NCBI RefSeq assembly: GCF_963576615.1 | Contig: NC_088712.1 | Coordinates: 53,921,114 to 53,985,113, forward strand | Direction: 5' to 3' | Source of the DNA: Watersipora subatra | Taxonomy: Eukaryota; Bryozoa; Gymnolaemata; Cheilostomatida; Watersiporidae | Length of the DNA: 64,000 nt | In this document: piece after piece, positions 29,697-63,045 of the stretch | Layout: the number at the start of each line of letters is the position of its first letter | Position numbering within the stretch: the stretch's first letter is position 1 | Notes under the pieces: generated by a model | The model's input: only the letters and a program-made list of their open reading frames with translations | The model's database searches: none | What the model was told of the DNA's origin: nothing | Translations under genes and position numbers: made by a program

Positions 29697-29857
29697 TTTG
29701 AAGAGCATTGCTGCATAAACAATGTCTCAGTGAACTTGGTTAGACACATCTGAGACCAGTGGCAAGGGAACCTTGATGATAAGAGACATTGTGATCAGCC
29801 CCAGTTGCAATTTAGACATTTACAAAGAATACATTTGAAAATTTACAATCTGTTATT
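29697..29857 (-). mobile_element. SINE body flanking satellite array 1
   Basis: Matches the middle domain of the SINE at 12640 ('aacaatgtctc', 'agacacatctgaga') and is almost identical to 39251-39335 ('gataagagacattgtgatca', 'cagccccagttg', 'ttgaaaatttacaatctgt'). It runs directly into the satellite. No tRNA head follows beyond the array. Confidence 0.6.
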
Positions 29858-30957
29858 ACATATTGATATATTACTAATGCATAGTGATATATTACTAATA
29901 CATAGTGATATATTACTAATACATAATGATATATTATTAATACATAATGATATATTACTAATACATAGTGATATATTACTAATACATACTGCTATATTAC
30001 TAATACATAGTGATATATTACTAATACATAATGATATATTACTAATACATAGTGATATATTACTAATACATAGTGATATATTACTAATACATTGTGATAT
30101 ATTACTAATACATAGTGATATATTACTAATACATAGTGATATATTACTAATACATAGTGATATATTACTAATACATAGTGATATATTACTAATACATTGT
30201 GATATATTACTAATACATAGTGATATATTACTAATACATAGTGATATATTACTAATACATAATGATATATTACTAATACATAGTGCTATATTACTAATAC
30301 ATAGTGATATATTACTAATACATAGTGATATATTACTAATACATAGTGATATATTACTAATACATAGTGCTATATTACTAATACATAGTGATATATTACT
30401 AATACATAATGATATATTACTAATACATAGTGCTATATTACTAATACAGAGTGATATATTACTAATGTATAGTGATATATTACTAATACATAGTGATATA
30501 TTACTAATACATAGTGATATATTACTAATACATAGTGATATATTACTAATACATTGTGATATATTACTAATACATAGTGATATATTACTAATACATAGTG
30601 ATATATTACTAATACATAATGATATATTACTAATACATAGTGCTATATTACTAATACATAGTGATATATTACTAATACATAGTGATATATTACTAATACA
30701 TAGTGATATATTACTAATACATAGTGATATATTACTAATACATAGTGATATATTACTAATACATAGTGATATATTACTAATACATAGTGATATATTACTA
30801 ATACATAGTGATATATTACTAATACATAGTGATATATGACTAATACATTGTGATATATTACTAATACATAGTGATATATTACTAATACATAATGATATAT
30901 TACTAATACATAGTGATATATGACTAATACATAGTGATAAATTACCAATACATAGTG
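29858..30957. repeat. 21-bp satellite, array 1 (about 52 units)
   Basis: Tandem 21-bp unit gatatattactaatacatag plus t on the plus strand, with single-base variants ('attgtga', 'tagtgct', 'acataat'). Because 21 is a multiple of three and the unit has no stop in one frame, a 344-codon repetitive ORF (SDILLIH) appears. It is not a gene. The unit is the reverse complement of array 2. Confidence 0.95.
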
Positions 30958-30958
30958 A

Positions 30959-32914: not shown

Positions 32915-32961
32915 CGGTAGATACGAAAAGCCGAACGCGCTGAATGACCGAACAGACCGAA
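32915..32961 (+). repeat. MULE left terminal inverted repeat
   Basis: 47 bp, starts CGGTAGATACGAAAAG and ends GAACAGACCGAA. Matches the right terminus without a mismatch. Confidence 0.9.
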
Positions 32962-33491
32962 CAGAATATTTTTTAGGAGTTGTCCTTCCGTATGAAGGCT
33001 AATTAAAGAGCAGACAACTTACACTAAGTTTGAGCTGAATCTTAAGAATGCTCAGCGTTAGCATCACTCGTACAGTAGATCTTCTCAAGGGGAGTTATAT
33101 ACCCTCAGTCCAGTCTCCACCAAGTCAACAAGTTACAGGAAATAAGTACAGGAAATAAGTACAGGAAATAATATCAATATGATGACAACTATAAACCTAG
33201 TTTTCAATTTATTATTATAATTGATTATCTTTGTTAATATAAAAAACTATAAAGAGCATACTACAAATTATTTTAATAGAAAAATCATGTCAATACAGAC
33301 AAGAATATTCAACTTGATACAGAGAAGAGTTTATTTTATCCAGATACTCTAGACAAAACTGTAAAAATAAAAAATAATTGCTAAATGACTTCTAGGTTCC
33401 TAATTTAACGTTCTATGTAAGACCAAGCATGAACACATATCCCATTGAGCTGGTTAGTATTTACTGCAGAGTGCAGAGCTCGATGGATGAT

Positions 33492-35897
33492 TTAGGCAGC
33501 TGAGAAACCTTGTTGTGTTAGAAAACCATCCGCCTCTGAAAAACTATCAAACTCATCTGGGCAGACATGAACTGAACAGGCTGACAGACATTTTTTATTT
33601 ACATGGTAATAACCCCATTCTTTATTGAGGGTAACTACAAGTTTTCTCGTATGAGGGTGTGGGTATGATCTATGTACCTTTTTGGCTAAGGCAAATCCTG
33701 AATGCTTGATATGGGCAAGATCCTTTTTACCACAGCCAATACACGTTGAAACCCTAGTGTGTTTTCTCAAGTTAACCAATATTACTTCCTTACTGTGGTC
33801 AACTAAACATGGTAGGGTTGACTTGTTCGTGGGCGCTGGAAGTGATATTGACTGGTTAGGGGCTGCTGGCAAAGGTAATGATATCGCTGTGGATGGTGCT
33901 CGCTTCCTAACTTTTTGGTTGGGCTTCAGACCAGCCCTACAAGTGCTCACACTTTGAGTGAGAAAAGCAACAGGATGGCGTTGTTTTTTATTATGTCTAA
34001 GCCATAGTATATAATTGAACAGTGTTCCATCTACATGTGCCGCAGCGATTGCATGGCTGCAAATATGGTAGATCTTATACCCCTTGCAAGGGCATTCTAC
34101 TCTGTAATCACTCTCTCTAATCGATACATTATGATTAGTCTTGAGTTCTGCACTCGCACAGGAATAATTTGAAAAACCATCACATGATGGTGCTGGCATC
34201 ACACCAAGATTTTGAATTAATTGGCATGCTTTCATGAACATCAACCTTAGAATATCTATGGGGACATTTACATTACACACTTCAGGTAAAACACTGAAGT
34301 TAGTCACAATACCAATCCTCATATCCTGTGAGACTTCTTCAACAGTAACTTTGTTGATATACTCAGAGTGGAGTTTTTTGTCAGTTTCTGAAAGCGAGTA
34401 CCATGACTCTGTTTTAAAATAAGGCCGGTATTCCATTTTGAGCTGATAGACTTGACTATTACCTATGAAACCATCAAGTGCTTTACCTACTTCTTGGTCA
34501 AAGTAACTGATAACATTAGATAAAAATCCCATAAGTGGTAGGGGTTTGCCACCCAAGAAAGCTTTGAGTTTAGAATTCACACTTTCAGATGCATTAGTAT
34601 AGTATAATTGACCATTATGGATACAGCTACTGATTGCTGACTGCCTTTCTTTCAAATATAGATACAGTTCAGGATATATAGAAGAATACTCTATTAACAT
34701 CTCCCTAAATAACACATCAAAGTCATTGGACAACAACATACTTTTAAGTCTGTTAACAAGCCGATGGTAAATGCTACTCAAGCCTAAAGACTTCAACTTT
34801 TCTTGTATGTTCTTTTGAGTGTGCAAAAAGCATCGTAATGCTTTTGCTTCAGGGAAAGCATTCTCTAGAGCTTTGATAAGCTCTGACTCGCCATCAGTAC
34901 CAAATGCTGTCAAATAACTGAGCTCTGGGGCCAAATCTAAAAGGCATTTCATCAGACTGCCATAACTACGCTGTGTTTTACGGTAATGAATGAGCATTGG
35001 ACCACAAAACACTGCATTGGTGCCTTGCCTGTTTCTAAGAAATAAGTTATTATACGTTATTGGAGTAACATAGAAATTTCCTACATTAAAAGTAGGGTCA
35101 ACACTAATAGGGCACCCTTTTGCACCAGTGGCAAACCTCTTCAGATCGACCAGATGTTGATCAGTAGCTATTACAACCACAGGCTACGGGTGAGCAGATA
35201 TCACCCGACATTCAGGATTTTCCTGAGCCCAATGCATCAAGGTAGCGAAATCATCTGGAAACTTGACATTTGTGCTTGCTTTTTGGGACCTGTGCACTAA
35301 ATGTATTGGTGGATTAAGTTCAGGTCTAATAGAAGCTCTACCCCCATGTTCATTTATATGCGACTCTAAGGAAGCACCAACAGACAAATGGCCAACACTG
35401 AGACCTATTTCTTTAACGACCGATGGCTTTTTTCTTGTGTAGCCAATAGCATTTGTGCTATTACCATGCGGTCTTAACTCTAGTTTATGAGGAGCACCCT
35501 CAAAGAGGTAACCAATAACTAAGAGCTGGTTAAAAAATGTGCATCTAGATGTTTCCACAAATGCAACTATTCTTTTGACATCTTTATAGTGCTTATGTTT
35601 GTAGTAGGTTTTATGCACTACAAACACATCTTTATCTAGAACAGCTTCTTTACTGCGATATCTACTTCTCAAACAATTGAAGTTTTTATCATACTTCCAA
35701 CAGTATTTCCCATCATTTTTGTACACACCCGTGCCATCTGCTAGGGCATCCTTGAGGGTTTTGCCATTCATATCTAGCACCACCAACATGCTGTCTGTGA
35801 TATCAGCCGGAGTGTCTTGTGAAATTGGAATCAAATTTTCCTGATCTCTTACAATTTTGAGAATGTTATGACACTCCAATAATGAGCGCACATCCAC
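33492..35897 (-). pseudogene. MULE transposase main exon with TAG at 35184
   Basis: Two ORFs, 35897-35184 and 35180-33492, are in the same frame and separated only by TAG CCT. Sequence on both sides reads as one protein (…CRVISAHP, stop, PVVVIATDQH…). The acceptor 'taacgttgtag' precedes GTG GAT GTG. Holds the DDE core, SWIM finger and C-terminal Cys/His region. Confidence 0.85.
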
Positions 35898-38242
35898 CTA
35901 CAACGTTAGAGAAGTTTTGCTACAAATATACCACATGTGGCTAATAGAGCCGAGCAAAGGTTGGACACATCAGCATATTGCTTACCTTAGAACTTTCTCC
36001 AAGGGATGAGTTGGTTCTGGCTTCCCTCTTGATGGAAGAAGACTCACACTCAAGTAGCTGACAGTCAGAATCTGAATCCTGCAATAATGAAATTGAAAAC
36101 ATCAAACAAAAATTGCAAAAATGATATCAGTGCCAATAGAAACAATGTTAACAGCCAATGTGTTATCAATCAGCGGATAGCTTACCTTACAATCGCTCCG
36201 TTTTACTCGGACTTCTTCCGTTTCAAAAGTCTGACAATCTGAGTCTGAGGACACAACTTGAGCATAACTCCTATTAATAAGTATTAAAACATATGATGCT
36301 TTGTTAGAATTGGTTTTCAAGTTAACATTGATTTGAGGGTCACTGTGCACACATATATCCTACCTCTTTTTTGGGGTGGATAACTTCACTTCTTCTTCAG
36401 AGCTAGAGACAGAAATTACAGAAAATTATCAATAAAAGTAAAAATTCAGTTCATTTGACCAACTACCAAGAGTGTGAAACCACTTAAGCGCATAAGGTTT
36501 GCGGCTCTTGTTTTGCATTCTTTATTTGGATATAAATTCATTTCATCTTACTGGGTTTCTATGTTGTCGAATATCCTAGGGTGCTCACACATGTAGCAAT
36601 ATGGTGTGTCCAGGTTGATATATGTGCACTTGGTACAGTCCCATTCCTCATCATTCCTTTCACTAAAATAACATTGGCTGATGTTATGTTATACTTTTAA
36701 GATGGATAGGCACATGTTCATTATTAATCTTTGGAGCTTTACTCGTATGATGAAATTACAAAACTAACAGCGAACCAAACAAGCAGCAGGCTTTCAACAA
36801 GCTAATTATAACTATTACCTTGCAGAGTTTGACTGCTTGAAACGAAAGAAGAAAGTTATAAACAGAAGGCGACATGAACATAACATGAATAACCACTATG
36901 AACGTAATAGCAATGATATATTTAAGTTCTACAGCTTGTGACAGTATGCAGGTCATATTTGGCTGCAACCAGTGCTTTAGGGGTGGACATTGTTACCTGT
37001 GTTAGTACCTAAAAGCTTTGTGTGCAAACCTTAGAATTGAATCGAAATGAATTACGATGGAATATTCACTTTGCTTAAAGCTACTAGCTACACCAGTATC
37101 CTGATCGAATACCAATTTTTAAGGTGGGGTTTCACACCAGCAGAGGAAAATGTTGCTCAAAGCATTTCTATTTGACTTGACAGGATGATAACCCTACTTC
37201 ATAAAATACTTACTGTTGGCTCCCCACACTGGTCTTTCAGCCGGTGATACCATCCACAAATCTCACAGAGAACTCTAAAATGCAGTAAATTTTGAACTGT
37301 ATTTCTAGCCAATTAATCGGAGGAATGGATCGCAACATTAAATAAAATATGATTATATGATTAAGGTTTACCCCAATAATATGACTGATCAATCAAATAC
37401 TAAATTATGGTCTTTTAGTTCACAAATAATATTATACAATACTATAGGCGTACTACAATAGTGTAATATTATAAAAATATCACTTACTAATATTCTATTG
37501 TATTTATATATAGATAATTTATAGCTAATAGTTGCTTTAACGATGATAAAAATACATGTAGTAAAAAAAATTATTGTATCAAGTTTAATTAAAATTAATA
37601 CATAATATAATTTTTTTTAATTTTAACTGTTATTTCAGAATTCTATTATTGTTATTATCATTATTGTTATAACTATTATCTATAAATCAATTATTATCTA
37701 TAAATAATATTAATTGAATGTTCCATATAATGTCAAGGCCGTAGGAAACGCCCACCCCTATTATAATACATATAAATCTTTGCTTAGACCTAGGTAGTGC
37801 GAGGGGCCTACGAAAAACAAATGTTCTGAAAAGTTCGAGTGCCTGTTCAAAGGCCATAAAATTACCGAACGATAGTTCTATGCATGAAGCCATAAGAAAG
37901 TGTCTTTCGATACAGCGAGTCTTTCGTTATAATTAGATTACGCGCATCGCGTTAATGCTATAGCGACTGATAAATAAATGGCTCGGTATTTTTTCCTGAG
38001 AACAAAACATAAATCCGGGAGTTTACCGGGAGATTTTATCTTTGCAAGAGGGTAATCTCAATTCAAGGAAGATCTCGCAAAATCTAGAAGAGTTGACAGC
38101 TTTGTCACCATATATAGAAATAAATATATTCATTTCCAGTTGAATAAAGAAACAATTTTGTCTAGTTATCTAGCTACTAGTTTATCAATGGTTAACGATA
38201 CTACTAAAAATGAAACACTTACCTTTTGCTTTTACCAGGCAT
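33492..38242 (-). CDS. MULE transposase, 8 exons, one in-frame TAG
   Basis: Cut-and-paste transposase. Exons in transcript order: 38242-38223 (ATG CCT GGT...), 37274-37214, 36835-36819 (17 nt), 36662-36552, 36402-36364, 36270-36186, 36078-35986 and 35897-33492. Every junction is GT-AG and phases agree, giving about 943 codons. The N-terminus has a small CxxC zinc module (LCEICGWYH...C), a RanBP2-type finger (WDCTKCTYINLDTPYCYMC) and acidic DSDSDCQ repeats. The core has DPTFNVGNFY (first Asp), FGTDGE (second Asp), the LRCFLHTQKN motif and NASESVN (Glu), the DDE set of MULE transposases. The SWIM finger is ECPCKGYKIYHICSHA. A Cys/His-rich C-terminal segment begins near CIGCGKKDL. A single TAG at 35184-35186 (about codon 380) breaks the reading frame just before the catalytic core, so this copy is probably a pseudogene unless the stop is read through or is an error. 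Confidence 0.85.
36552..36662 (-). CDS. MULE transposase exon 4: RanBP2-type zinc finger
   Basis: Encodes NDEEWDCTKCTYINLDTPYC and YMCEHPRIF. The spacing W-x-C-x2-C-x10-C-x2-C is that of RanBP2/NZF fingers, which in other proteins bind ubiquitin or RNA. Phases 2 in and 2 out match exons 3 and 5. Confidence 0.8.
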
Positions 38243-38439
38243 TTCTCTTTTATCTGTCAAAAGTAAGGCGAGTACTGACTGGACTAGCGACAGCAAAAAT
38301 ACTTCGATTGAATATGCAATATTTTCATTCACAGCGTGCTTCACTAGCGCAAAAATAAACAAGTCTCTAAAATGTTACTAAGCAATTCATCGAGCTCTTA
38401 TCCATAAATAGCAACATGAGAGGGCAACTGCCAAAGATA

Positions 38440-38486
38440 TTCGGTCTGTTCGGTCATTCAGCGCGTTCGGCTTTTCGTATCTACCG
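38440..38486 (-). repeat. MULE right terminal inverted repeat
   Basis: Reverse complement of the left terminus. Followed by the 9-bp duplication CTAACCCGT at 38487-38495. Confidence 0.9.
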
Positions 38487-38495
38487 CTAACCCGT

Positions 38496-39250
38496 TCCCA
38501 GCCTCTACAAAAACGCGGATATATAATATTTGAACATATTATAAATACATGTAATAGTTCAAACCTGAAACAAATGTGTGTTAAAAGTATACTACTACAT
38601 AATAAATTGAAAAAGTACACAGAAAAAATACAGAAATAATGAACAAAAACTATGATCGGTAAGTTTGTTTGTTTACCTTTGCCATTGTTCGTCTAAATTA
38701 GGCAAATAAAAACCATGAGAAGTTAAAAGATGGAAGTCCAAAGAGGTGGCTGTTGTATTGTTATCTTGGTTCTGTTTCGCTCAGAATAAAAGTTTTCAAA
38801 TACATAAAGTGCGTAAAAAGATTTATTTCATCGCCGTAAACAAAACTATTAGACAAAAAACGCAAGTAGAATTGCTAGAAACAAAAGTTGTCTTACTCTG
38901 CATGCGGTACATAATAACTCCAAATTATTAAATAAAGGAAAACGAAATTGTCGTTCAATGACTTTCATTAGCCAAAGAAACTGAGTGAGACGTTCTACGT
39001 CGTAGCCACAGAAAGCAAATGGACCAATGAACAAAACTACAAATAAGCTCAAGTATGAAAAGTGTTTTGGCTATTCGTGTCTAAAAATATATTTCTCAAG
39101 TCGAAGCAAAATCTCTTCAAAAAGACATTTTGTAACATGAAATTTCCGTATGTTGAGTCTTTGGCAAGTAGATGTTCTACTAGCTCTCCCACATCTTTTG
39201 AAAAGTAATGGGAAGTATGTACTGTATGCTCCTCAAGCAGAGGCTGTTTT
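38496..39250. other. Region downstream of consortin-like gene
   Basis: No gene recognised. The segment from about 38950 to 39232 forms an inverted-repeat arm with 40397-40620. Confidence 0.4.
39020..39232 (+). repeat. Inverted repeat arm 1 around terminal exon
   Basis: Diverged reverse complement of 40397-40580. Best part: 'ttctactagctctcc', 'cttttgaaaagtaatgg' and 'actgtatgct' against the complement at 40397-40460. The arms flank consortin-like exon 7. Confidence 0.65.
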
Positions 39251-39480
39251 AATGATAAGAGACATTGTGATCAGCCCCAGTTGTGATTTAGACATTTACA
39301 GAGAATACATTTGAAAATTTACAATCTGTAACTACATAGTGATATATTACTAATACATAGTGATATATTACAGCAATGTGTATTAGTAATGCCATTTCTG
39401 TTACTACTGGTGACTTTTTTGGAAATTGAACCCCGTCTTGATGGTCACAGGTCAAGTGGTCTAGACTACTAGATCACAGG
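39251..39480 (-). mobile_element. SINE copy containing a two-unit satellite seed
   Basis: The left part is almost identical to 29775-29855. It is followed by two copies of the 21-bp satellite (39335-39375), then 'gccatttctgttactactgg' and, on the reverse strand, a tRNA-like head ('ctagtagtctagacc' and 'ggggttcaatttcc'). Order and right part match the SINE at 12640, which has no satellite. Confidence 0.6.
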
Positions 39481-40088: not shown

Positions 40089-40300
40089 TCAGTGGCCTTT
40101 CTTGCTCAGCTTGTATGCGATGAAGCCGATCTGCTCCGCAAATGATCGGTACTGTACCCTCACCCAGTGACAGGTCCACGAAGTAGGAGTCATTTTGCAG
40201 TAGACAACACTGAAGAGGATGATAGCCAAGATACTGCAAACTACAAGTGTTATCCAGAGAATGCCCAGGCAGCAACAGGACATCTCTTTTTCCACACCAT
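40089..40300 (-). CDS. CNST: Consortin-like exon 7 (transmembrane tail)
   Basis: Acceptor 'catgttttgcag'. Begins DGVEKEMSCCC after codon completion, then one strong transmembrane helix and a tail ending KLSKKGH with a stop at 40089-40091. A longer out-of-frame ORF overlaps it and is discarded because it does not fit the phase of exon 6. Confidence 0.76.
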
Positions 40301-43300
40301 CTGCAAAACATGTCAATCAATGTTAAAGCACTAGATAAATCTCTTTATAATGCGACTCATTTTATAAATAACTGCTTGACTCCCTCATGATCCCGACAGC
40401 ATACAGTGCGTGTATTCCATTACTTTTCAAAAGAATCTGGAGAGCTAGTAGAACATTTACTTACCAAAGACTCTACATACGAAACTTTCAAGTTACAAAA
40501 CGAAACAACTTTTGATAGAAGTTTTGTTTCATAGGCTTCAGACATTGGCTTATTTGTTAATTTTGTTCATTGACCGTTAACGAAAGTCAGTAAACAACCG
40601 TTTCATTTTTTGTATATCTTGAGGTATATGAGGACATGAGGTATATGATAACTCATGTCCTATGCTGCATGAGTTACCATATACCTCATGCAGCATAGGA
40701 CAACTTCCATTTTTAGCAATTCTAGTTCTGTGTTTTTGTCTGATGATAGGTTTTTGTTCGTGTGAAAAATGTACTAAGTATTAGTAATATATCACAATGC
40801 ATTAGTAATATATTACTATGTATTAGTAATATATCACTATGTATTAGTAATATATCACAATGTATTAGTAATATAGCACTAAGTATTAGTAATATATCAC
40901 TCTGTATTAGTAATATATTACTATGTATTAGTAATATATCACAATGTATTAGTAATATATCACTATGTATTAGTAATATATCACTATGTATTAGTAATAT
41001 AGCACTATGTATTAGTAATATATCACTATGTATTAGTAATATATCACTATGCATTAGTAATATAGCACTATGCATTAGTAATATAGCACTATGCATTAGT
41101 AATATATCACTATGTATTAGTAATATATCACTATGTATTAGTAATATAGCACTATGTATTAGTAATATATCACTCTGTATTAGTAATATATCACTATGTA
41201 TTAGTAATATAGCACTATGCATTAGTAATATATCACTATGTATTAGTAATATATCACTATTTATTAGTAATATATCACTATGTATTAGTAATATATCACT
41301 ATGTATTAGTAATATATCACTATGTATTAGTAATATATCACTATGTATTAGTAATATAGCACTATGCATTAGTAATATATCACAATGTATTAGTAATATA
41401 TCACTATGTATTAGTAATATATCACTATGTATTAGTAATATAGCACTATGTATTAGTAATATATCACTATGTATTAGTAATATATCACAATGTATTAGTA
41501 ATATAGCACTATGTATTAGTAATATATCACTATGTAGTAGTAATATATCACTCTGTATTAGTAATATATCACTATACATTAGTAATATATCACTATGTAT
41601 TGGTAATATATCACTATGTATTAGTAATATATCACTCTGTATTAGTAATATATCACTCTGTATTAGTAATATATCAATATGTATTAATAATATATCACTA
41701 TGTATTAGTAATATATCACTATACATTAGTAATATATCACTATACATTAGTAATATATCACTATGTATTAGTAATATATCACTATGTATTAGTAATATAT
41801 CACTCTGTATTAGTAATATATCACTCTGTATTAGTAATATATCACTCTGTATTAGTAATATATCACTCTGTATTAGTAATATATCAATATGTATTAATAA
41901 TATATCACTATGTATTAGTAATATATCACTATACATTAGTAATATATCACTATACATTAGTAATATATCACTATGTATTAGTAATATATCACTATGTATT
42001 AGTAATATATCACTCTGTATTAGTAATATATCACTATACATTAGTAATATATCACTATGTATTGGTAATATATCACTATGTATTAGTAATATATCACTCT
42101 GTATTAGTAATATATCACTCTGTATTAGTAATATATCAATATGTATTAATAATATATCACTATGTATTAGTAATATATCACTATACATTAGTAATATATC
42201 ACTATACATTAGTAATATATCACTATGTATTAGTAATATATCACTATGTATTAGTAATATATCACTCTGTATTAGTAATATATCACTCTGTATTAGTAAT
42301 ATATCACTCTGTATTAGTAATATATCAATATGTATTAATAATATATCACTATGTATTAGTAATATATCACTATACATTAGTAATATATCACTATACATTA
42401 GTAATATATCACTATGTATTAGTAATATATCACTATGTATTAGTAATATATCACTCTGTATTAGTAATATATCACTATGTATTAGTAATATATCACTATA
42501 CATTAGTAATATATCACTATGTATTGGTAATATATCACTATGTATTGGTAATATATCACTATGTATTAGTAATATATCACTCTGTATTAGTAATATATCA
42601 CTATACATTAGTAATATATCACTATGTATTAGTAATATATCACTATGTATTAGTAATATATCACTCTGTATTAGTAATATATCACTATACATTAGTAATA
42701 TATCACTATGTATTGGTAATATATCACTATGTATTGGTAATATATCACTATGTATTAGTAATATATCAGTATGTATTAGTAATATATCACAATGTATTAG
42801 TAATATAGCACTAAGTATTAGTAATATATCACTCTGTATTAGTAATATATTACTATGTATTAGTAATATATCACAATGTATTAGTAATATATCACTATGT
42901 ATTAGTAATATATCACTATACATTAGTAATATAGCACTATGCATTAGTAATATAGCACTATGTATTAGTAATATATCACTATGTATTAGTAATATATCAC
43001 TATGTATTAGTAATATAGCACTATGTATTAGTAATATATCACTATGTATTAGTAATATATCACTATGTATTAGTAATATAGCACTATGTATTAGTAATAT
43101 ATCACTATGTATTAGTAATATAGCACTATGTATTAGTAATATATCACTATGTATTAGTAATATATCAGTATGTATTAGTAATATATCACAATGTATTAGT
43201 AATATAGCACTAAGTATTAGTAATATATCACTATGTATTAGTAATATATCACTATACATTAGTAATATATCACTATGTATTAGTAATATATCACTATACA

Positions 43301-46300
43301 TTAGTAATATAGCACTATGCATTAGTAATATAGCACTATGTATTAGTAATATATCACTATGTATTAGTAATATATCACTATGTATTAGTAATATAGCACT
43401 ATGTATTAGTAATATATCACTATGTATTAGTAATATATCACTATGTATTAGTAATATAGCACTATGTATTAGTAATATATCACTATGTATTAGTAATATA
43501 GCACTATGTATTAGTAATATATCACTATGTATTAGTAATATATCAGTATGTATTAGTAATATATCACAATGTATTAGTAATATAGCACTAAGTATTAGTA
43601 ATATATCACTCTGTATTAGTAATATATTACTATGTATTAGTAATATATCACAATGTATTAGTAATATATCACTATGTATTAGTAATATATCACTATACAT
43701 TAGTAATATAGCACTATGCATTAGTAATATAGCACTATGTATTAGTAATATATCACTATGTATTAGTAATATATCACTATGTATTAGTAATATAGCACTA
43801 TGTATTAGTAATATATCACTATGTATTAGTAATATATCACTATGTATTAGTAATATAGCACTATGTATTAGTAATATATCACTATGTATTAGTAATATAT
43901 CACTATGCATTAGTAATATAGCACTATGCATTAGTAATATAGCACTATGTATTAGTAATATATCACTATGTATTAGTAATATATCAGTATGTATTAGTAA
44001 TATATCACAATGTATTAGTAATATAGCACTAAGTATTAGTAATATATCACTATGTATTAGTAATATAGCACTATGTATTAGTAATATATCACTATGTATT
44101 AGTAATATATCACTATGCATTAGTAATATAGCACTATGCATTAGTAATATAGCACTATGTATTAGTAATATATCACTATGTATTAGTAATATATCATTAT
44201 GTATTAGTAATATATCACTCTGTATTAGTAATATATTACTATGTATTAGTAATATATCACAATGTATTAGTAATATATCACTATGTATTAGTAATATATC
44301 ACTATACATTAGTAATATAGCACTATGCATTAGTAATATAGCACTATGTATTAGTAATATATCACTATGTATTAGTAATATATCACTATGTATTAGTAAT
44401 ATAGCACTATGTATTAGTAATATATCACTATGTATTAGTAATATATCACTATGTATTAGTAATATAGCACTATGTATTAGTAATATATCACTATGTATTA
44501 GTAATATATCACTATGCATTAGTAATATAGCACTATGCATTAGTAATATAGCACTATGTATTAGTAATATATCACTATGTATTAGTAATATATCACTATG
44601 TATTAGTAATATAGCACTATGTATTAGTAATATATCACTCTGTATTAGTAATATAGCACTATGTATTAGTAATATATCACTATGTATTAGTAATATATCA
44701 CTATGTATTAGTAATATATCACAATGTATTAGTAATATAGCACTATGTATTAGTAATATAGCACTATGTAGTAGTAATATATCACTCTGTATTAGTAATA
44801 TATCACTATACATTAGTAATATATCACTATGTATTGGTAATATATCACTATGTATTAGTAATATATCACTCTGTATTAGTAATATATCACTATACATTAG
44901 TAATATATCACTATGTATTAGTAATATATCACTATGTATTAGTAATATATCACTCTGTATTAGTAATATATCACTATACATTAGTAATATATCACTATGT
45001 ATTGGTAATATATCACTATGTATTGGTAATATATCACTATGTATTAGTAATATATCACTATGTATTAGTAATATATCACTCTGTATTAGTAATATATCAC
45101 TATACATTAGTAATATATCACTATGTATTAGTAATATATCACTATGTATTAGTAATATATCACTATGTATTAGTAATATATCACTATGTATTAGTAATAT
45201 ATCACTATGTATTAGTAATATAGCACTATGTATTAGTAATATATCACTATGTATTAGTAATATATCACTATGTATTGGTAATTTATCACTATGTATTAGT
45301 AATATATCACTATGTATTAGTAATATATCACTATGTATTGGTAATATATCACTATGTATTAGTAATATATCACTATGTATTAGTAATATATCACTCTGTA
45401 TTAGTAATATATCACTATACATTAGTAATATATCACTATGTATTAGTAATATATCACTATGTATTAGTAATATATCACTCTGTATTAGTAATATATCACT
45501 ATACATTAGTAATATATCACTATGTATTGGTAATATATCACTATGTATTAGTAATATATCACTATGTAGTAGTAATATATCACTCTGTATTAGTAATATA
45601 TCACTATACATTAGTAATATATCACTATGTATTGGTAATATATCACTATGTATTAGTAATATATCACTCTGTATTAGTAATATATCACTATACATTAGTA
45701 ATATATCACTATGTATTAGTAATATATCACTATGTATTAGTAATATATCACTCTGTATTAGTAATATATCACTATACATTAGTAATATATCACTATGTAT
45801 TGGTAATATATCACTATGTATTGGTAATATATCACTATGTATTAGTAATATATCACTATGTATTAGTAATATATCACTATGTATTAGTAATATATCACTA
45901 TACATTAGTAATATATCACTATGTATTAGTAATATATCACTATGTATTAGTAATATATCACTCTGTATTAGTAATATATCACTATACATTAGTAATACAT
46001 CACTATGTATTGGTAATATATCACTATGTATTGGTAATATATCACTATGTATTAGTAATATATCAGTATGTATTAGTAATATATCACAATGTATTAGTAA
46101 TATAGCACTAAGTATTAGTAATATATCACTCTGTATTAGTAATATATTACTATGTATTAGTAATATATCACAATGTATTAGTAATATATCACTATGTATT
46201 AGTAATATATCACTCTGTATTAGTAATATATCACTATGTATTAGTAATATATCACTATGTATTAGTAATATAGCACTATGTATTAGTAATATATCACTAT

Positions 46301-49300
46301 GTATTAGTAATATATCACTATGTATTAGTAATATATCACTATGTATTAGTAATATAGCACTATGTATTAGTAATATATCACTCTGTATTAGTAATATATC
46401 ACAATGTATTAGTAATATATCACTATGTATTAGTAATATATCACTATGTAGTAGTAATATATCACTCTGTATTAGTAATATAGCACTATGTATTAGTAAT
46501 ATATCACTATGTATTAGTAATATATTACTATGTATTAGTAATATATCACTCTGTATTAGTAATATATCACTATGTATTAGTAATATATCACTATGTATTA
46601 GTAATATAGCACTATGTATTAGTAATATATCACTATGTATTAGTAATATAGCACTATGTATTAGTAATATATCACTCTGTATTAGTAATATAGCACTATG
46701 TATTAGTAATATATCACAATGTATTAGTAATATATTACTATGTATTAGTAATATATCACTCTGTATTAGTAATATATCACTATGTATTAGTAATATATCA
46801 CTATGTATTAGTAATATAGCACTATGTATTAGTAATATATCACTATGTATTAGTAATATAGCACTATGTATTAGTAATATATCACTATGTATTAGTAATA
46901 TATCACTATGTATTAGTAATATATCACTCTGTATTAGTAATATATCACTATGTATTAGTAATATATCACTCTGTATTAGTAATATATCACTATGTATTAG
47001 TAATATATCACTATGTATTAGTAATATAGCACTATGTATTAGTAATATATCACTATGTATTAGTAATATATCACTATGTATTAGTAATATATCACTATGT
47101 ATTAGTAATATAGCACTATGTATTAGTAATATATCACTATGTATTAGTAATATATCACTATGCATTAGTAATATAGCACTATGCATTAGTAATATAGCAC
47201 TATGTATTAGTAATATATCACTATGTATTAGTAATATATCACTATGTATTAGTAATATAGCACTATGTATTAGTAATATATCACTCTGTATTAGTAATAT
47301 AGCACTATGTATTAGTAATATATCACTATGTATTAGTAATATATCACAATGTATTAGTAATATATCACTATGTATTAGTAATATATCACTATGTATTAGT
47401 AATATATCACTATGTATTAGTAATATAGCACTATGTATTAGTAATATATCACTATGTATTAGTAATATATCACTATGTATTAGTAATATAGCAGTATGTA
47501 TTAGTAATATATCACTATGTATTAGTAATATATCACTCTGTATAACATAATGCATATTAACCTTATGGAGCGCATACATATTCTAATGAACATTACTAAT
47601 AAAACACCCTCCGATGCACACCCTCCGATGCTCCTATCTATGACAAACCCTAGCCTACAAAATAGATTTCAACAGAATATCAACCATAATCTAACCTGGT
47701 ACTACTTGTGGAGAAGAACTGGTGTTGTCTTGGGGAACGGTACTTTGTGTAGCCAATGTATCAGTTTTAGCCGAAATCCTTCTACGATGGACTGTGGTCT
47801 TAGCCTCGCTACTGCTGCCTATCTCTGCAATACACAGAGAACTTTGTTAGCCCCCATCGAGTAATATACAGTAATATTATGCTGCAGTAAATAACTTACA
47901 TAGTAACAAGTTGTATATTAAGTTTCCTCGTAGTAACAGTGTAATGACACCTGGGGTGCCAGTGCCGAAGCGCTACGCTGGGCCGACCTGTAGATCATCT
48001 TTTCATAGAGCACTGTAGTACAGCCATGGTTGTGTGACGCCTTGTGTCTCAAGTAAAAACAGAGACATTACAGCATTTCTACAGCAAAGTTTTCTGCAAG
48101 TGAAAGAGCTGGAAAGCAAGACCTATGAGCATAAACAATTGCGACGCTGTTGGTCGCTAAGGCCATTCCCATGACACAAAGATGACGCATCGAATGGACG
48201 TTTCGCTTGTAAATAGCAACACTGAACAACATGGCTGTTTTCATGATGGCATTGCAGCGCCATATGGAGGTGTGTCGCTACGCTATCACTCTATGGAAAC
48301 TTCGTGAAAATCTGATGTCAACTAGTTTATACAGAAACGGTTAAAAGAGCAGTCAGAATATGCTAGATTAAGTTACTTGAATAATTAAGTACCATTTAGT
48401 CTGTAAACTGGTCTGCTATGGCTAGCTAGAATAGTTAATCACACAAGTATTATTGTCCAAGTACGGACATGATGCAATGACTCTGAAACTCCTATAGCGA
48501 CAAACTGATGTACTCAGCAAAGAGCTTTCAGGAGATTTCTATCTATCATTTACGATTGTTGTTGATGTGTAAGGTTATCTGACTGCCAAGATGTTGCAAG
48601 AATAAGATCAACAAAACTTTATTGCAGTTGAAATGCTATGTTCAGGAAAATTTAAATTAAACAAGATGAATGATATTTGCGTACATATGAACTAGTTTAT
48701 AAATCTGGAATACTTTGAAAAAATTTGGATGTGGTATGCCGGAAAAAAGCTTTACGTTTAGAATTGAATTATTATAAATTATTGAATTACAATATTATAT
48801 ATGACCTAATCTATGACATTCTATACATATACATATAGTAAATCCTAAATATACATAGAGTAAACCCTAAATGTATATTTATAATAGGTATATATATATA
48901 CATGATATTCTATGTTAAAACATTTGCATGTAACTGTGATCTTTATCCGAAATATGACTGTATTTTTAAAATCTTTATCTTGCTATCTTTATCTAATCAT
49001 TTAAACACAATTATCAGGCCAATCACGCCAAGGCAGTAACAGGAAATAGCGATGATGTTGAATAGAAAAGTCTGCCGTAAACGCTGTAACCTACGTCTGT
49101 AATCTGCATCGATTAAACCATTTACATTTGTAAATTGGTAATAAAAATCCTAAATATTTATGTAGTATGTTTTGAACTCAAAGAGAACATAGGCTATGGT
49201 GCATCCTTATATCAAACTATTAGAATAACAAGCATGGAGTCAGTCACATATGCATAGATTACCAGCAAGCTCGGGCTCCAGCGGTTCACTCTCATATTGA

Positions 49301-52300
49301 GCAAGCTTGTCTGTGTACTCTTCCTTGCCTACTTGGGCATAAACCGACGTGAACAAGTCTAAACATCGCTGGGTGGATGCATCCTCGTCTCCGTAATTCT
49401 TTTGGTACAACTTTGTTGCTTTTCCACTAAATTCTAATGCCAACTGACACCTGCGCAACCGAACATTTCATACTAATTATAAATTATCTTTACGCAGTAT
49501 AGATAAAGGTGTCACAGGATACAGTTGCTATACCAACTGTAATAAATTTTAATCCATTGGGCAGATAAACAAAACCAATGTCCTATCACTTACGCAAGTT
49601 GCACTTCATAGCTCTGGAGCCACTATTTTGAAAGCAGTAAATTTTATATTATCTGAAAGCCAAGAAAATACTGCATCAATTAATTCAAAGAATTTTATAA
49701 TGGGGGTTTTTCACTGCTAGATTTTAATTGCTATGACTGGACACAGGGATTAACAAAAAGACAAACGATAAGATTTATATAGATTAAATAACTGAACCCT
49801 CCGATTGCGCAGATTTGCACTGGTGCCGACATCTTTCCGCGCTTAACTCTTCTAGCATAGAAAGTTTTTTTTTACTAAAAGCGAGTATCGTTCCTGCAAC
49901 CTTCAAAGTAATAATTGTATAGCAAGTAGTAAATTCTGTTGATGTTTTGTAATATAAAGGGATATTAAAATTATTAACAATAAAGAAAATTCTGATCAGC
50001 TATCCTGGCTGAGTTAGTGCAACAGGTGTACAAAGCTGGGATTGAAAAGTGACCCTGACCCAAATGTGAGCCTACTTCAACTAGTTCTTTTTTGAGGATT
50101 ACATCGCTAGTCTTGGAAAAGTCAATAAAGCGTAACTCCGAATCATTGAAATGGTAGGGTGCGAATTTGTCGGCACATGTCAACTACGAATCCACTCGAA
50201 TATGCTTCGGCTAGGCATAACCAAAGCAAGCATGTAATTGGACAACGTAATTGACACAATAATAGCACAAAAAGTAGATAAAACAACTTCAATTTCTGGA
50301 GTGCCGTTCAGACTCACAAAAACTTCTTTTGATTCCGCAAATATTTGCGCTTGAGGGTGGCATGGTATAAATAACTTTCACTCGCATACTCATGGTTTTG
50401 AATCCGGGCTATGGCTTTTCCATCAAATCACTTTTAAAAATTCAATGTTTTAGATCTGTTAAAATAAGGACTCGTGTAAATATTTCATCCCAGGACACAA
50501 AACCATCCATTTATTATACTACTAGGTGAATGCTCGACATTGCACGAGTAATAGAACAAGTTTGTGCATAGAACATTTATTTCAGATAGGCTGAGTTTCT
50601 TAACCTAACGAATTCGAGTAACTTAAGCTAGAACAACTTAAGTTTAAGGGTAAACTTGCAACAAAATTCACATTACAGTTATTTGGTATCAAAAGGTTAC
50701 CCATGTCTTACTATGTGTTGTAGGTGCAAAATATGTGGAAATGTGATTACAAACTTTTAAAAGCTCAAAACCGAACAGTTAATCGCAGCCATCATGAGAA
50801 TGCCGTAGATTGGAATCCCTTCCCAAAACGGCTCAAAAGTGACATAAGTTAACACAATGTGCTTCTGTTTACACTTTCATGCAACCTCATTCATCAAAAT
50901 ATTTTTACACATAAACTTCACGCATTCAATAAAACCATGTCTATTGTCATTACGCGTTTATTTCATCATCATCATTGTAATGTGTCACTTTGAGCACTGA
51001 TATCTCAAAATCTAGCCTAAAAATCAGTTTAATTTTTTAACCATAGCTCGAGGGAGTGCACATCATTCGCTGATGACCATGAGGAGCCTGTTTGTCACCT
51101 GTGATGGCCAAAAATTGCTGCAGAAATTGTTTGCAACATTTGGCAGGAAATATGGGTCACATGATCAAATTACGACCAAATGATTAGACCAAGCTGAAAC
51201 GAAACTGTAAAGTAGCAAGCATCGATATTTGGTATGGCCTTTTCGGTAGAACCGAAGTGTTTGTCATAAACTAATGCCACGAGAAGTGTTATATCGAACC
51301 TTTTATTGGCCTTTTATTTCACGGTGTCAAAACAATAACCACGTCGAGTTGAGTACTTCATCAAAATAAAGGAATTCCAACCTACGGCCGTTTTTTTAAC
51401 TGTTCGTTTTTGCACTTTTAAGAGCTTGTAATCACACTTCCACATATTTTGCACCTACAACACAGCAGAGTAAGACATGGTGAACATTTTGATACCAAAA
51501 AATGTAATGTGAATTTTGTTGCAAGTCCACCTTTAAGCTAGCTTAAGCTAGCTTAAGCATGAGTATTTTAAACAATCCGCATTAAAAAATAGCAGGTGCA
51601 TAAGTATGTTCACAATTATTCATCAGTATGGCCAGGATGGACACGAAGTCTAGTGGTTTAGCGCGCCTGTTTGCAGACCTGAAGGTTCCAAGTTCAAATT
51701 AAGTACAAACCGGATTTTTTGTTGCTAAAACTTTATCACTATAACTGGACACACGAATGACAGACCAACAGACAGACAAACACTGAGATTTATATATAAA
51801 TATTTGACTTATAATAATGTGATACCACAACATCTAGCAGACGCACTGTGGGGGAGCATTTATATAAACTACCTCGGTGTACTAGAAACAATATAGATTC
51901 AACTTACTGGTGCTTGTCAAGGCATAATTTTGCCAAACGTTCATATTCATCAGCCCGAACCACTTCGACATCGGCATCTCCGGTTGTAAGGTCATCTACA
52001 GCAGTGACATATAAATATAAAAACAACTATACACGGCTATCACTTCTGGATCTAATTACATGCACCATATTTGGAGAAGTGAGGTCTTTGAGAGTACTTG
52101 AATATTTACAGACTACTATGGTTAGGGGTTTGGAAAAAGATTGCATCATACGGTATTTGAACTTGCGACATTCATCTTGGTAGACACTAATCACCCACTT
52201 CCTGACACTTTGGAATATAATTGGGCAGCCACTTACTCTCAGTGCTTGATCGGCACGCATGACCATCTCTCACAGCCCACTAAACTGCCAATGAACTTTC

Positions 52301-55300
52301 TGAGCCAAAGTGAACAGTCATGGCTTTTCATTTGATGCAGGACTACATTACTTGCATTAGATGTATGAAATTCTACAGCGTAATGATGACAATGTCATCT
52401 ACATGTATATACATAAATCTAAAGGTTTGTGTGTGTGTCTTGGTTTGTACAGCTATAGCTATTAAAATTTAGGAATGAAATAACCGTTTCATGCTGAATT
52501 TATTCTCGGAACCTCCTGTTCCCCAGGCAAATATCTTACCAATTGAGCTACGCGAGATTAATGAATTCATTGGCTGATATATGTCGTTATGTGGATTAAA
52601 ATACACTACCACTCTCCATTACGCGCAACTTCATTTCATGCTTGCTCTCACGGCTTTTATTAGTAAAACCTGTATATAACGAGACTACTCAAATTTGCCA
52701 TTGGCAGTGTGCCAGGCTAATGGCAAGTGGTAGGCAACTACATTACCTGTCACTGTTGATAAGCTCATTTTTAATACCAGTGCAATGCCGGGCATTCCGC
52801 TAGTATAAGCATAATTGTAAATGTATGCCATCGCACATGTCCATCACCTCACATATCCATTGCCTCACATGAACTGCATCTGACACGCTAAAATCTCCAC
52901 AAGTACTACATCTCACATGTACACAATGCAACTTATATAATCCATACACAAGTATCCCACAAGCCCATCATCTCCCATGTCCAATATGGGACAAACCAAT
53001 TTTTTCTTGCATCTGTCGACTATCGATGAGAGCTGTTTCATAGTAGATCTTCTCAGCTTTGAGGAACTGAATGGCCTTTTCATCTTCGTCTTTCCTGTGA
53101 TAGCATTCGGCTATCTTGTGCAGGCACTGTGGTAGGTAGAGAAAGCCAGACCCTAGAATGTCAGGCCAACTAATATGTAGGGCCTACTGTCTTTCATATA
53201 ACTTCATATAATAACATACCCTACGGTTGTTGAAGTTTTTGTGTGATTAAAATATTAACAATTCACAAAGGTTACTATTAGGTCTAGTATCTGATGGACT
53301 TTAATGTCCACACACCATTAAACCAGAATGATGGCAGCAAGTATAAACATTTTTAAGTTTTCAGGGCAACTATGGCAAAGATTAGTGTGGTATACACACA
53401 AGTACAAAGCCCACAAAGTAAAGATACGATACTAAATATAGTCTTTAGCCTGATTTAGTAAGGAAAAACTCTTCCAAATGATGATAACCAAAACAAATTT
53501 GAAGAAACCTGAATCAGGCCATATGACTATCGTTACCTTCACAATGGACAACTTTGATATCTACCATCAGGTTCAAACAGCTCATCCTATATGGCAGTTG
53601 GAAGTAACAAAAAAGATGAAGTCTTACAATTAAAAGATAAAATAAAAATAAATGCTGATGCCAATGGAAAAGACCAGCAATTCTACAGACACATAATTTA
53701 ATTTAGCTAAAGACAAATGAAAAGAGCCTCGTAGGATGGATTTCAAATGTTGCTCCAACACAACATATTGGCATTGTGCAGAGGAAAATATTCCATTCCA
53801 AACCTGGAAGTAGATAGTTATATCCTACCAACAACTGTTAACCCAAACATTTTACCTGTAGGTGTATGTAGTTGACTTAGATTTTAGATAAATGTAGTCG
53901 AACTAGTTTGTAGATATACGTAGTTGCCCTAGTCTGTAGGTATATGTAGTTGGCCTAGTCTGTAGGTATATGTAGTTGGCCTAGTCTGTAGGTATATGTA
54001 ACTGACCTAGTCTGTAGATGTACGTAGTTGCCCTAGTCTGTAGGTATATGTAGTTGGCCTAGTCTGTAGGTATATGTAGCTGACCTAGTCTGTAGGTATA
54101 TGTAACTGACCTAGTCTGTAGATATACGTAGTTGCCCTAGTCTGTAGGTATATGTAGTTGGCCTAGTCTGTAGGTATATGTAACTGACCTAGTCTGTAGG
54201 TATATGTAGTTGGCCTAGTCTGTAGGTATATGTAGTTGACCTAGTCTGTAGGTATATGTAACTGACCTAGTCTGTAGATGTACATAGTTGCCCTAGTCTG
54301 TAGGTATATGTAGTTGGCCTAGTCTGTAGGTATATGTAGCTGACCTAGTCTGTAGGTATATGTAACTGACCTAGTCTGTAGATATAAGTAGTTGACCTAG
54401 TCTGTAGGTATATGTAGTTGACCTTGTCTGTAGGTATATGTAACTGACCTAGTCTGTAGGTATATGTAGTTGACCTAGTCTGTAGGTATATGTAGTTGAC
54501 CTAGTCTGTAGGTATATGTAGTTGACCTAGTCTGTAAGTATACGTAGTTGACCTAGTCTGTAGGTATATATAGTTGACCTAGTCTGTAGGTATATGTAAC
54601 TGACCTAGTCTGTAGGTATATGTAGTTGACCTAGTCTGTAGGTATACGTAGTTGACCTCGTCTGTAGGTATATGTAATTGACCTTGTCTGTAGGTATATG
54701 TAACTGACCTAGTCTGTAGGTATAAGTAGTTGACCTAGTCTGTAGGTATATGTAGTTGACCTTGTCTGTAGGTATATGCAACTGACCTAGTCTGTAGGTA
54801 TATGTAGTTGACCTAGTCTGTAGGTATACGTAGTTGACCTAGTCTGTAGGTATATGTAGCTGACCTAGTCTGTAGGTATATGTAGCTGACCAAGTCTGTA
54901 GGTATATGTAGTTGACCTAGTCTGTAGGTATACGTAGTTGACCTTGTCTGTAGGTATATGTAATTGACCTTGTCTGTAGGTATATGTAGTTGACCTAGTC
55001 TGTAGGTATATATAGTTGACCTAGTCTGTAGGTATATGTAGCTGACCTAATCTGTAGGTATATGTAGTTGACCTAGTCTGTAGGTATACGTAGTTGACCT
55101 AGTCTGTAGGTATATGTAGCTGACCTAGTCTGTAGGTATATGTAGCTGACCAAGTCTGTAGGTATATGTAGTTGACCTAGTCTGTAGGTATATGTAGTTG
55201 ACCTAGTCTGTAGGTATACGTAGTTGACCTTGTCTGTAGGTATATGTAATTGACCTCGTCTGTAGGTATATGTAATTGACCTCGTCTGTAGGTTTTACAT

Positions 55301-59217: not shown

Positions 59218-61974
59218 TCATGGCTTTCCTCGCAGGTTGCGGGAAGTCCTGGGCATAAAACTATATTGATAAAAACTCGAATTTGACTCAATGGCGGGGG
59301 GTTCCCCGTTAGTTGTTGACCTTGTATTATGATCATGAGTTGTATCTTGTAAATGCTTAAAACTATCAACAAAAGAACTGTGCTTGCTATCTGTTAAAAT
59401 TTCTAGCATCAATGTCATGCGAGCACTCTTACGCCTTGCCTCCAACAGCTCTAGATCCAAAAACTGCCTTGCTTCCGTAACACTCTGTTTTCCCCTCAAA
59501 TCTGAAATAAAACGCACAGCCCTTCGCTGCACATTCTCCAACGATGTTATCTGCCTAACTAAATGAGGGTCCCATACCTCACCTGCATATTCCATTATAG
59601 GTCTACACAAGGTGAGGTATGCAACCCTCTTCACCTTTCTGGGGGCCTTAAAAAGCACATGCCTCATCATACCCAACCTCCGAGAAGCCTTTGCCGTCAC
59701 CGAATCAATCTGCAAGTCCCAACTAAAATCACTAGTAATTTCAACTCCAAGATATTTAAAAGCTGATACATTCTCTAACGCTATTCCTCCTAAAAAGTAA
59801 TCCACAGAACTATCAAGACCGTTCTTACCAAACCTGACTATTTGACACTTATCAGTGTTAAACACCATACCCCAATGCTCAGCCCACCTTTCCAACAAAA
59901 ACAAATCTTCCTGGAATTTCTGGGAACTATCTAAGCTGTTAACCGGGCAATAAAGAAGGGCATCGTCCGCAAAAAGTCTCATTGTCGATGTCTTTATAAT
60001 GCTACAAATGTCATTAATGTAAACTAGAAAAAGAGAGGGCCCCAGCACGGAACCCTGAGGAACACCAGAAGTTACTGCAAGAGAACCAGACGTTGCTCCC
60101 TCCACAACCACTCTCTGCATTCGGTCTGCCAAAAAATGTGCTATCCATCTAACTACTGCTGAGTCAATACCAATAAATAACAGCTTTTCAATTAAGAGAC
60201 CGTGAGGTACTCGATCGAAAGCTTTCGAAAAATCCAACACTGCAGCGTGTACCGAGTCATTTCCATCCACCATTTTCATAATGTCATCTACTGTTGTGAC
60301 AAGTTGGGTAGTGCATGAGAGACCCTGTCTAAATCCATGTTGGCTTGGGTTGAGCGTTACATTAAGATGCTGATTAATATTGCTTAGTACTATATGTTCT
60401 AAAAGTTTGCATGCAATACATGTAAGTGAAACTGGTCTAAAATTACTGGGGCTGTCTCTCGAGCCTTTTTTAAAAATTGGTACTACGTTTGCCGCCTTCC
60501 AGATATCAGGCAGCTGGCCAGTATTAAGAGAATGTTGAAAGATAAGAGCTAAAATCTGACTAGTGACCACCACATCAAGACTGAGGTCCTCTTTCCTCAG
60601 CTGGTCAGGGCCTGGGGCCTTTCCGGTCTTCAGACCAATTAACAATTTCCTCACCCCCTCACTAGTAATTGTAATCGGACAGTTCCCTTCAGCCCAAAGC
60701 GGGTCTGAGTATGAACTGCTCCCAGAAAAAACACTCTGAAAATACTTGTTAAAAATCTCTGAAGTCTCAAAAGCTGATTTACCCTTAAAAATAACAGAGC
60801 CATGGCAGCTCTTCCCACTCTTCCTTCTATAAAATGAATAGAAAGGCTTGCTATCTCCCAAACTCAGTGGTTTGAATAATATTCTATCATAGTGGTCATA
60901 TTCCATTTTCCTAAAGAGCTTTTTGTTTTGGCGCCTAGCCTGTTTGTACTGTTGTAGGTCTGTGTCCAGGCCACTTTTCTTGAATTTATCATACAATTTT
61001 CTTTGCGATCTTACACACTTCCTGGCAGAATCATTAAACCATACGGGCTCGTCTTTGTTTCTGATCTTTTTTGTGCATTTAGGTACATAGTTACTGACTG
61101 CTTCTTTCAAGTCCGTTTCAAAGATTTGCCATGTTGTGTTTATGTTTTCTTCATTTTGAATAGCGCTTGACACTTTAGAAAGTGTTTTCTCTAGAGCCAG
61201 AGTGATAGCTTCAAAATTTGCCTTAGCGTATATTTTAAAAGAATCATTATGCTTACTATTTGGCCTAAATTCCCTGATTTTTATATTTATGCCTACCATG
61301 TAATGGTCACTTAGTCCAGGATTGATCACATTCAAATCTGTAAAAAGGCTGTCATTATTAGTAAGGATTAGGTCGAGTGTATTGCCAAGTTGGTGTGTAG
61401 GCTCAGTCACGAGTTGGGTCAGGTGATGGGATAGCAGACTGCTCAAAAAAGATTTGTGAAGTGTTTTGTTGTGAGATCCAGAACGAACTTGACCTATAAT
61501 CCAGTCTATGTCAGGCAAGTTAAAATCGCCTGAAACAAATATAGTAGATTTAGGAAATCTTGACACTACTTGTCCCAGTAGATCGTCAAGTGGATCAATT
61601 GTTTGTCTGATAAAAGATGGTGGGATGTAAAGGCACAAAATTATCAAATCTAGGCCACTATCAACGCATTCTATTTTTACACAAACCACTTCTATTGGAA
61701 AATATGTACCCTCTAAGTGGATCTGGTGGTGATTAATACATGGTGAAAGGGCAATCATTACTCCTCCGCCATGGCAATCTCGATCACATCTATAAATACA
61801 CTTTTGCGATGAGCTCAAAATCATTTCATTATTGAAAGACGAATCAATATGTGTCTCTGTAATGCATAGTATATCATATTCCGATGCTAAAACTTCTATT
61901 TCATTCAGTTTACCCTTCACTGACCTTGCGTTTGCTAAAAGAAGGCTTATTGGTTTACTTTCACTATTTTTTTT
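59218..61974 (-). CDS. LINE ORF2: endonuclease and reverse transcriptase
   Basis: From 61920 the frame gives 900 residues. It stays open upstream through the conserved start of the endonuclease (SLLLANARSVKGKLNEIE) into ORF1, with no ATG in that overlap. Endonuclease motifs are ITETHID, SGDFNLPDIDW and LSDHYMV. RT motifs, roughly residues 430-730, are KTGKAPGPD, HGFRQGLSCTTQL, LDFSKAFDRVPHG, GVPQGSVLGPSLFLVYIND and the catalytic FADDALLY. The C-terminal LCRPIMEYAGEVWDP is typical of CR1/Jockey-type elements. No RNase H domain is present. Stop TGA at 59218-59220. Confidence 0.85.
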   Translation of the reverse strand, partial: KKNSESKPISLLLANARSVKGKLNEIEVLASEYDILCITETHIDSSFNNEMILSSSQKCIYRCDRDCHGGGVMIALSPCINHHQIHLEGTYFPIEVVCVKIECVDSGLDLIILCLYIPPSFIRQTIDPLDDLLGQVVSRFPKSTIFVSGDFNLPDIDWIIGQVRSGSHNKTLHKSFLSSLLSHHLTQLVTEPTHQLGNTLDLILTNNDSLFTDLNVINPGLSDHYMVGINIKIREFRPNSKHNDSFKIYAKANFEAITLALEKTLSKVSSAIQNEENINTTWQIFETDLKEAVSNYVPKCTKKIRNKDEPVWFNDSARKCVRSQRKLYDKFKKSGLDTDLQQYKQARRQNKKLFRKMEYDHYDRILFKPLSLGDSKPFYSFYRRKSGKSCHGSVIFKGKSAFETSEIFNKYFQSVFSGSSSYSDPLWAEGNCPITITSEGVRKLLIGLKTGKAPGPDQLRKEDLSLDVVVTSQILALIFQHSLNTGQLPDIWKAANVVPIFKKGSRDSPSNFRPVSLTCIACKLLEHIVLSNINQHLNVTLNPSQHGFRQGLSCTTQLVTTVDDIMKMVDGNDSVHAAVLDFSKAFDRVPHGLLIEKLLFIGIDSAVVRWIAHFLADRMQRVVVEGATSGSLAVTSGVPQGSVLGPSLFLVYINDICSIIKTSTMRLFADDALLYCPVNSLDSSQKFQEDLFLLERWAEHWGMVFNTDKCQIVRFGKNGLDSSVDYFLGGIALENVSAFKYLGVEITSDFSWDLQIDSVTAKASRRLGMMRHVLFKAPRKVKRVAYLTLCRPIMEYAGEVWDPHLVRQITSLENVQRRAVRFISDLRGKQSVTEARQFLDLELLEARRKSARMTLMLEILTDSKHSSFVDSFKHLQDTTHDHNTRSTTNGEPPAIESNSSFYQYSFMPRTSRNLRGKP

Positions 61975-62867: not shown

Positions 62868-63045
62868 TAGTCACAGCAGTGCCTGAAGCGGCCAAGCTGC
62901 CTTCCTGCTAACTTCAAAACAATATAAAAGTGATATGGTAAACAAAGAGTTGTCCCACTCAGTGTCTACCACTAGTCACAGCAGTGCCTGAAGCGGCCAA
63001 GCTGCCTTCCTGCTAACTTCAAAACAATATAAAAGTGATATGGTA
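62836..63045. repeat. 105-bp tandem duplication upstream of LINE ORF1
   Basis: Two nearly identical units, 62836-62940 and 62941-63045, each starting aacaaagagttgtccc and ending 'aaagtgatatggta'. The first overlaps the ORF1 5' end. Confidence 0.85.

Follow-up and report, generated by a model that had tools for sequence, protein, structure and literature searches.

The window analysed here, a stretch of 64,000 nucleotides from the genome of the bryozoan Watersipora subatra, contains one 21-bp word at three sites inside 18 kb, comprising 2, 52 and 322 units. The largest site, array A, appears to fill most of an intron of a consortin-like gene on the minus strand; an inverted array of the same word, array B, sits 10 kb from array A, and the two-unit copy lies between both. 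The features of this locus, in window coordinates, are:

29773..29853, plus strand: outer flank of array B, 81 bp, 95% identical to 39249-39329
29857..30958, minus strand: array B, 52 units of the 21-bp word of array A, inverted, with 12 distinct substitutions and 0 indels
39249..39329, plus strand: flank copy adjoining the two-unit site, 81 bp, 95% identical to 29773-29853
39329..39370, minus strand: two-unit site, about two units of the 21-bp word in the orientation of array B
40089..40300, minus strand: predicted last coding exon, which encodes a hydrophobic, probably membrane-spanning stretch and finishes with a stop
40301..47695, minus strand: predicted last intron of the consortin-like gene, 7,395 bp, splice signals GT...AG, 92% of it array A
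40398..40772, plus strand: truncated dispersed-repeat copy holding the left edge of array A, with an inverted copy at 38848-39230 (64% alike)
40773..47543, plus strand: array A (TRF: period 21, 322.4 copies, 0% indels)
47696..47846 (5' limit provisional), minus strand: predicted penultimate coding exon, joining 40300 in frame
52971..53183, minus strand: Consortin_N frame (Pfam PF22883, E 1.4e-22)

Coding frames on the minus strand flank array A on both sides, and joining 47696 to 40300 at the GT...AG signals keeps the frame open into the last exon across 7,395 bp. As far as splice signals can tell, this would place the array inside an intron, as had been proposed from the sequence at the outset. 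An unspliced reading of the exon beside array A stops one codon into the intron. The frame at 52971-53183 is the one match to Consortin_N over the cut-off in the whole genome, and we infer that it belongs to one transcript with the two exons around array A. Consortin_C (PF15281) gave no match at the last exon in a genome search with E values up to 1, which returned two weak matches elsewhere, below the cut-off; the naming of the gene therefore rests on its N-terminal domain. A search of the PDB with the Consortin_N frame yielded weak matches only (best E 0.044).

Elsewhere in the window, four copies of an approximately 890-bp element (443-1336, 3889-4774, 5314-6204 and 50640-51539; 78-90% alike) carry terminal inverted repeats of approximately 135 bp (e.g. 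447-581 and 1201-1335, 93%), and look like a family of non-autonomous inverted-repeat transposons. A non-LTR retrotransposon on the minus strand (59218-62867) comprises two frames, one for an endonuclease and reverse transcriptase (59218-61920) and, upstream of it, one that carries a PHD finger (61947-62867), and an exact two-copy 105-bp tandem is present at 62835-63045. An alpha/beta hydrolase frame (Abhydrolase_3, E 2.9e-11) occupies 15750-16223 on the minus strand.

Composition and extent of array A

The consensus unit of array A, TTAGTAATATATCACTATGTA, is 21 bp long and AT-rich, and the GC content of the array is 0.207-0.211 (42001-46000). Stepping by 21 bp from 40781 revealed 322 full units in unbroken succession, each with at most two differences from TTAGTAATATATCACTATGTA (none in 126 units, one in 142 and two in 54). 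A wraparound alignment in which indels were permitted returned 251 substituted cells, 16 distinct substitutions and 0 indels. TRF, the 21-bp stepping and this alignment thus all bear out the preliminary description of 322 indel-free units of 21 bp, and the marker units that it listed are indeed multiples of 21 bp apart (19, 18, 21 and 99 units). Its statement that point variants are common holds for the substituted cells; with just 16 distinct substitutions and 20 unit types (n = 322 units), however, it counts copies and not events.

Within the window, the unit pattern was matched 365 times, compared with 0 times in every one of 100 shuffles, which excludes chance. When the 784-Mb genome was searched with a 31-base pattern and at most three mismatches, the same 365 matches (313 forward and 52 reverse) were recovered and none was found outside the window. 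Because the unit was found at one locus only, the term satellite first applied to it is misleading, and array A is a minisatellite rather than a member of a satellite family. The coordinates originally given are accurate for array A, but the unit also occurs at 29857-30958 (52 inverted units) and at 39329-39370 (about two units).

Analysis of the order of variant units revealed exact blocks of 14-18 units that recur in array A at lags of 18, 22, 29, 37, 38 and 66 units, whereas no block longer than 9 units arose in 200 shuffles; block scores that tolerate mismatches were also 14-18, with 9 as the highest value in 60 shuffles. The irregular lags point to exchange or copying in steps of different size, and not to a fixed higher-order unit. 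This pattern, seen in one assembly, supports the earlier suggestion that exchange or copying has involved whole units. Differences per unit fell from 0.87 in the leftmost 23 units to 0.57 in the rightmost 23, and the higher divergence at both edges of array A that is expected from unequal exchange was looked for and not seen.

Absence of indels compared with other arrays of the genome

Since copies by descent are not independent, the distinct variant is the right counting unit for asking how unusual the lack of indels is. The set searched for control arrays consisted of the window and 40 genome loci (325,749 bases), the latter a non-random sample of 20 dispersed-repeat matches, 2 loci flanking the window and 18 round-number positions. 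A filter of at least 10 copies and a period of at least 4 gave 23 arrays. Of these, six whose units measured 5-14 bp at 66-80% match were dropped (L017, L020, L049:7523 and the arrays at 19621, 21189 and 23689 of the window), the array at 21582 of the window (7.8 copies) was added and L046 was kept, resulting in 18 arrays, 16 of which are controls. Indels were present in five of the six dropped short-unit arrays, indicating that slippage is visible in this genome at short units; their inclusion would make a count of zero look rarer.

The 16 control arrays contained 267 distinct substitutions and 36 distinct indels. Given its 16 substitutions, array A would be expected to contain 1.8-2.2 indels, and the probability of none is 0.12, or 0.17 without L029, which has the highest ratio of indels to substitutions; for arrays A and B together it is 0.10-0.15. 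Seven of the 16 controls lacked any indel (6 of 15 when the 8-bp, indel-free L046 is left out), and 13 had at most two distinct indels. Similarly, all 50 of 50 genome matches to the unit of a 26-bp array in the window were in register, as were the 100 listed, all exact, among 298 genome matches to an 18-bp array on another chromosome, over 4,140 bp. The missing small length errors of array A are thus ordinary for this genome, by a test whose modest power leaves a constraint possible. The preliminary description had taken them to imply exchange in whole units, homogenisation or a constraint on unit length; whole-unit exchange or copying stands, but a constraint is not needed (P of zero indels 0.12-0.17), since with so few independent mutations the absence of indels requires no further cause.

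Long tandem arrays were also observed elsewhere in the genome, at L048 (1594-10000), L051 (1-2239), L031 (2098-3069) and L046 (1-1367); one such array has a 53-bp unit and extends over 8.4 kb with 97% match, reaching past the end of its stretch. The 26-bp minisatellite (53856-55293; 55 units, no indels), the site of all 50 genome matches to its unit, extends into a frame on the minus strand that weakly matches TPR (E 0.026).

Two other explanations for the regularity were weighed against this result. It is unlikely that the regularity is partly a product of assembly, through indels removed by polishing or a collapsed array length, given that the same assembly keeps indels elsewhere, such as in L048 (a single 1-bp indel in 43 copies) and L038 (10 indels). 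We consider it very improbable that unit length is constrained by helical or nucleosome phasing or by a bound protein, such that indels are purged. A length of 21 bp is approximately two helical turns, the 374 units of arrays A and B contain 0 indels, and shuffles seldom match the folding of one of the three array stretches examined (z -1.8; 8 of 200 as good). Nevertheless, zero indels has a probability of 0.10-0.17, a low-power result that does not show constraint to be absent, and indel-free arrays make up nearly half of the controls (7 of 16). The periods of other arrays (18, 20, 23, 24, 26, 27, 30, 33, 49, 50, 53, 58 and 171 bp) show by eye no lean towards 21 or its multiples, and the remaining two array stretches are matched by shuffles more often (z -0.8 and -1.6; 41 and 15 of 200 as good), making folding mild at most. 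Nor is the unit unusually palindromic, 44% of shuffled units scoring as high; neither a special dyad nor a hairpin structure is supported.

The inverted array and the two-unit site

The most interesting part of the locus is array B, the inverted twin, together with the two-unit site. Eleven of the 12 substitutions in array B are also found in array A (63 possible; hypergeometric P 8e-8), and two double-variant unit types occur once in each array. This sharing suggests that most variants already existed when array A was copied from array B, array B from array A, or the two from a common source. No collinear unit blocks common to the two arrays were found beyond chance (the longest run spans 6 units, a length reached in 158 of 300 shuffles), leaving the shared variants to carry the case for common descent.

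The two-unit site adjoins the second copy of the 81-bp flank of array B, and could be a seed or a remnant copy of the outer end of array B. In a genome search with the 297 bases left of array B, for which 40 of 165 candidates were scored, the query and the copy at 39249-39329 were accompanied by 38 matches that cover mainly an adjoining dispersed repeat (query 132-249); no further full copy of the 81-bp flank was among these 40. At the left edge of array A, other copies of the truncated dispersed repeat run on where the array starts here. A hairpin at about 39346-39390, at the two-unit site, does not clearly stand out from shuffled sequences, of which 17 of 200 fold as well.

One tentative and rather doubtful scenario is that the inverted pair was made by foldback or template switching at the two-unit site between the arrays, which then grew separately, so that the locus would record the passage from one short seed to inverted minisatellites; such a pair could form long double-stranded RNA if the intervening region were transcribed through.

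Between arrays A and B lies a candidate MULE-like element (32915-38486), whose transposase frame (33492-35180) matches PF10551 below its cut-off and is adjoined by a frame without a Pfam match (35184-35897). The inversion of arrays A and B on either side of this frame would fit a foldback-like or Mutator-like element whose arms are these tandem repeats, with the transposase-like gene between them. We give this reading little credence, because the flanks of the arrays show no inverted match, with 174 of 500 (outer) and 217 of 500 (inner) shuffles as good, and because the MULE-like gene has candidate inverted ends of its own, at 32915-32986 and 38421-38486. The matching terminal inverted repeats and multiple genomic copies typical of foldback elements were likewise not found, the genome search having recovered no unit copies elsewhere. 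Homology of the right flank of array A to the outer flank of array B appeared suggestive by eye, but was equalled in those same 174 of 500 shuffles.

Open reading frames across array A

The frames of more than 2260 codons reported to be open on both strands of array A were recovered as ORFs of 2285 aa (minus strand) and 2262 aa (plus strand). The repeating unit has six frames, three of them open, and shuffling the 21-mer leaves both strands open in 86% of trials, so no selection on frame is needed to account for them. The two giant ORFs are an arithmetic by-product of the unit, and the initial view that they are not genes is upheld. Just 3 of 63 and 2 of 63 possible substitutions could close the giant frames, and the finding that 0 of the 16 observed substitutions does so therefore says little. 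That array A encodes protein on one or both strands in a frame kept by selection is scarcely credible despite the length of these frames and their freedom from closing variants, since both-strand openness is so frequent in shuffled units, 2 of the 16 variants introduce a stop into the third open frame, and the splice sites put the array in an intron, into which the unspliced exon reads for one codon.

Comparison with known repeat classes

Minisatellites (VNTRs) have units of 15-100 bp, and array A resembles them in unit size and in its variant repeats. Within the window, 21-bp units are tandemly repeated at a single locus (322 and 52 copies), with variant repeats in blocks (14-18 units, compared with at most 9 in shuffles). 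Most human minisatellites are described as GC-enriched (PMC3618361), unlike array A, which is AT-rich and intronic and is known from one assembly. A closer likeness may be found in FRA16B (33-bp units) and FRA10B (about 42-bp units), which are AT-rich minisatellites that extend over kilobases without interruption (PMC9714581). In these loci as in array A, a unit that is AT-rich and tens of bases long is repeated without a break over several kilobases at a single locus; the likeness rests on AT content and array form, the unit lengths being different. Kilobase length combined with a GC content of 0.207-0.211 is the feature that array A has in common with this type.

Array A also resembles satellite DNA in its long tandem array, shared variants and block structure. 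However, satellites are dispersed or megabase-sized, whereas the unit of array A occurs at one locus only: neither many sites nor megabase arrays were found, the 365 matches in the genome being the 365 in the window. In sum, the locus is an ordinary minisatellite, though a large and tidy one.

Discussion

Minisatellites are known to grow by unequal exchange, gene conversion and break-induced replication. Read from the pattern of its units, the locus is very probably an AT-rich minisatellite private to one locus that grew by in-register recombination. We propose that a short seed would have grown by unequal sister-chromatid exchange, gene conversion or break-induced replication, and that the search for homology would realign the units in register, such that changes in length involve whole units. 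The few point mutations could then have spread through the array by block copying. A part in which most variants were already present may have been copied in inverted orientation between the sites of arrays A and B, in either direction. Array A would be tolerated as spliced-out intron DNA of the consortin-like gene and is probably without function.

Experimental work in yeast offers a parallel, in that its reporters score whole units gained or lost, and homologous recombination is needed for tracts to be altered in the mutants named there (PMC3618361).

With one word present inside 18 kb as a pair of inverted arrays and as a two-unit copy, this locus is useful for dating the start of a minisatellite and its copying. 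More broadly, a lack of indels and huge frames on both strands arise easily in long-unit arrays without selection, and a count of distinct indels against distinct substitutions, compared with other arrays of the same genome, offers a simple test for such cases.
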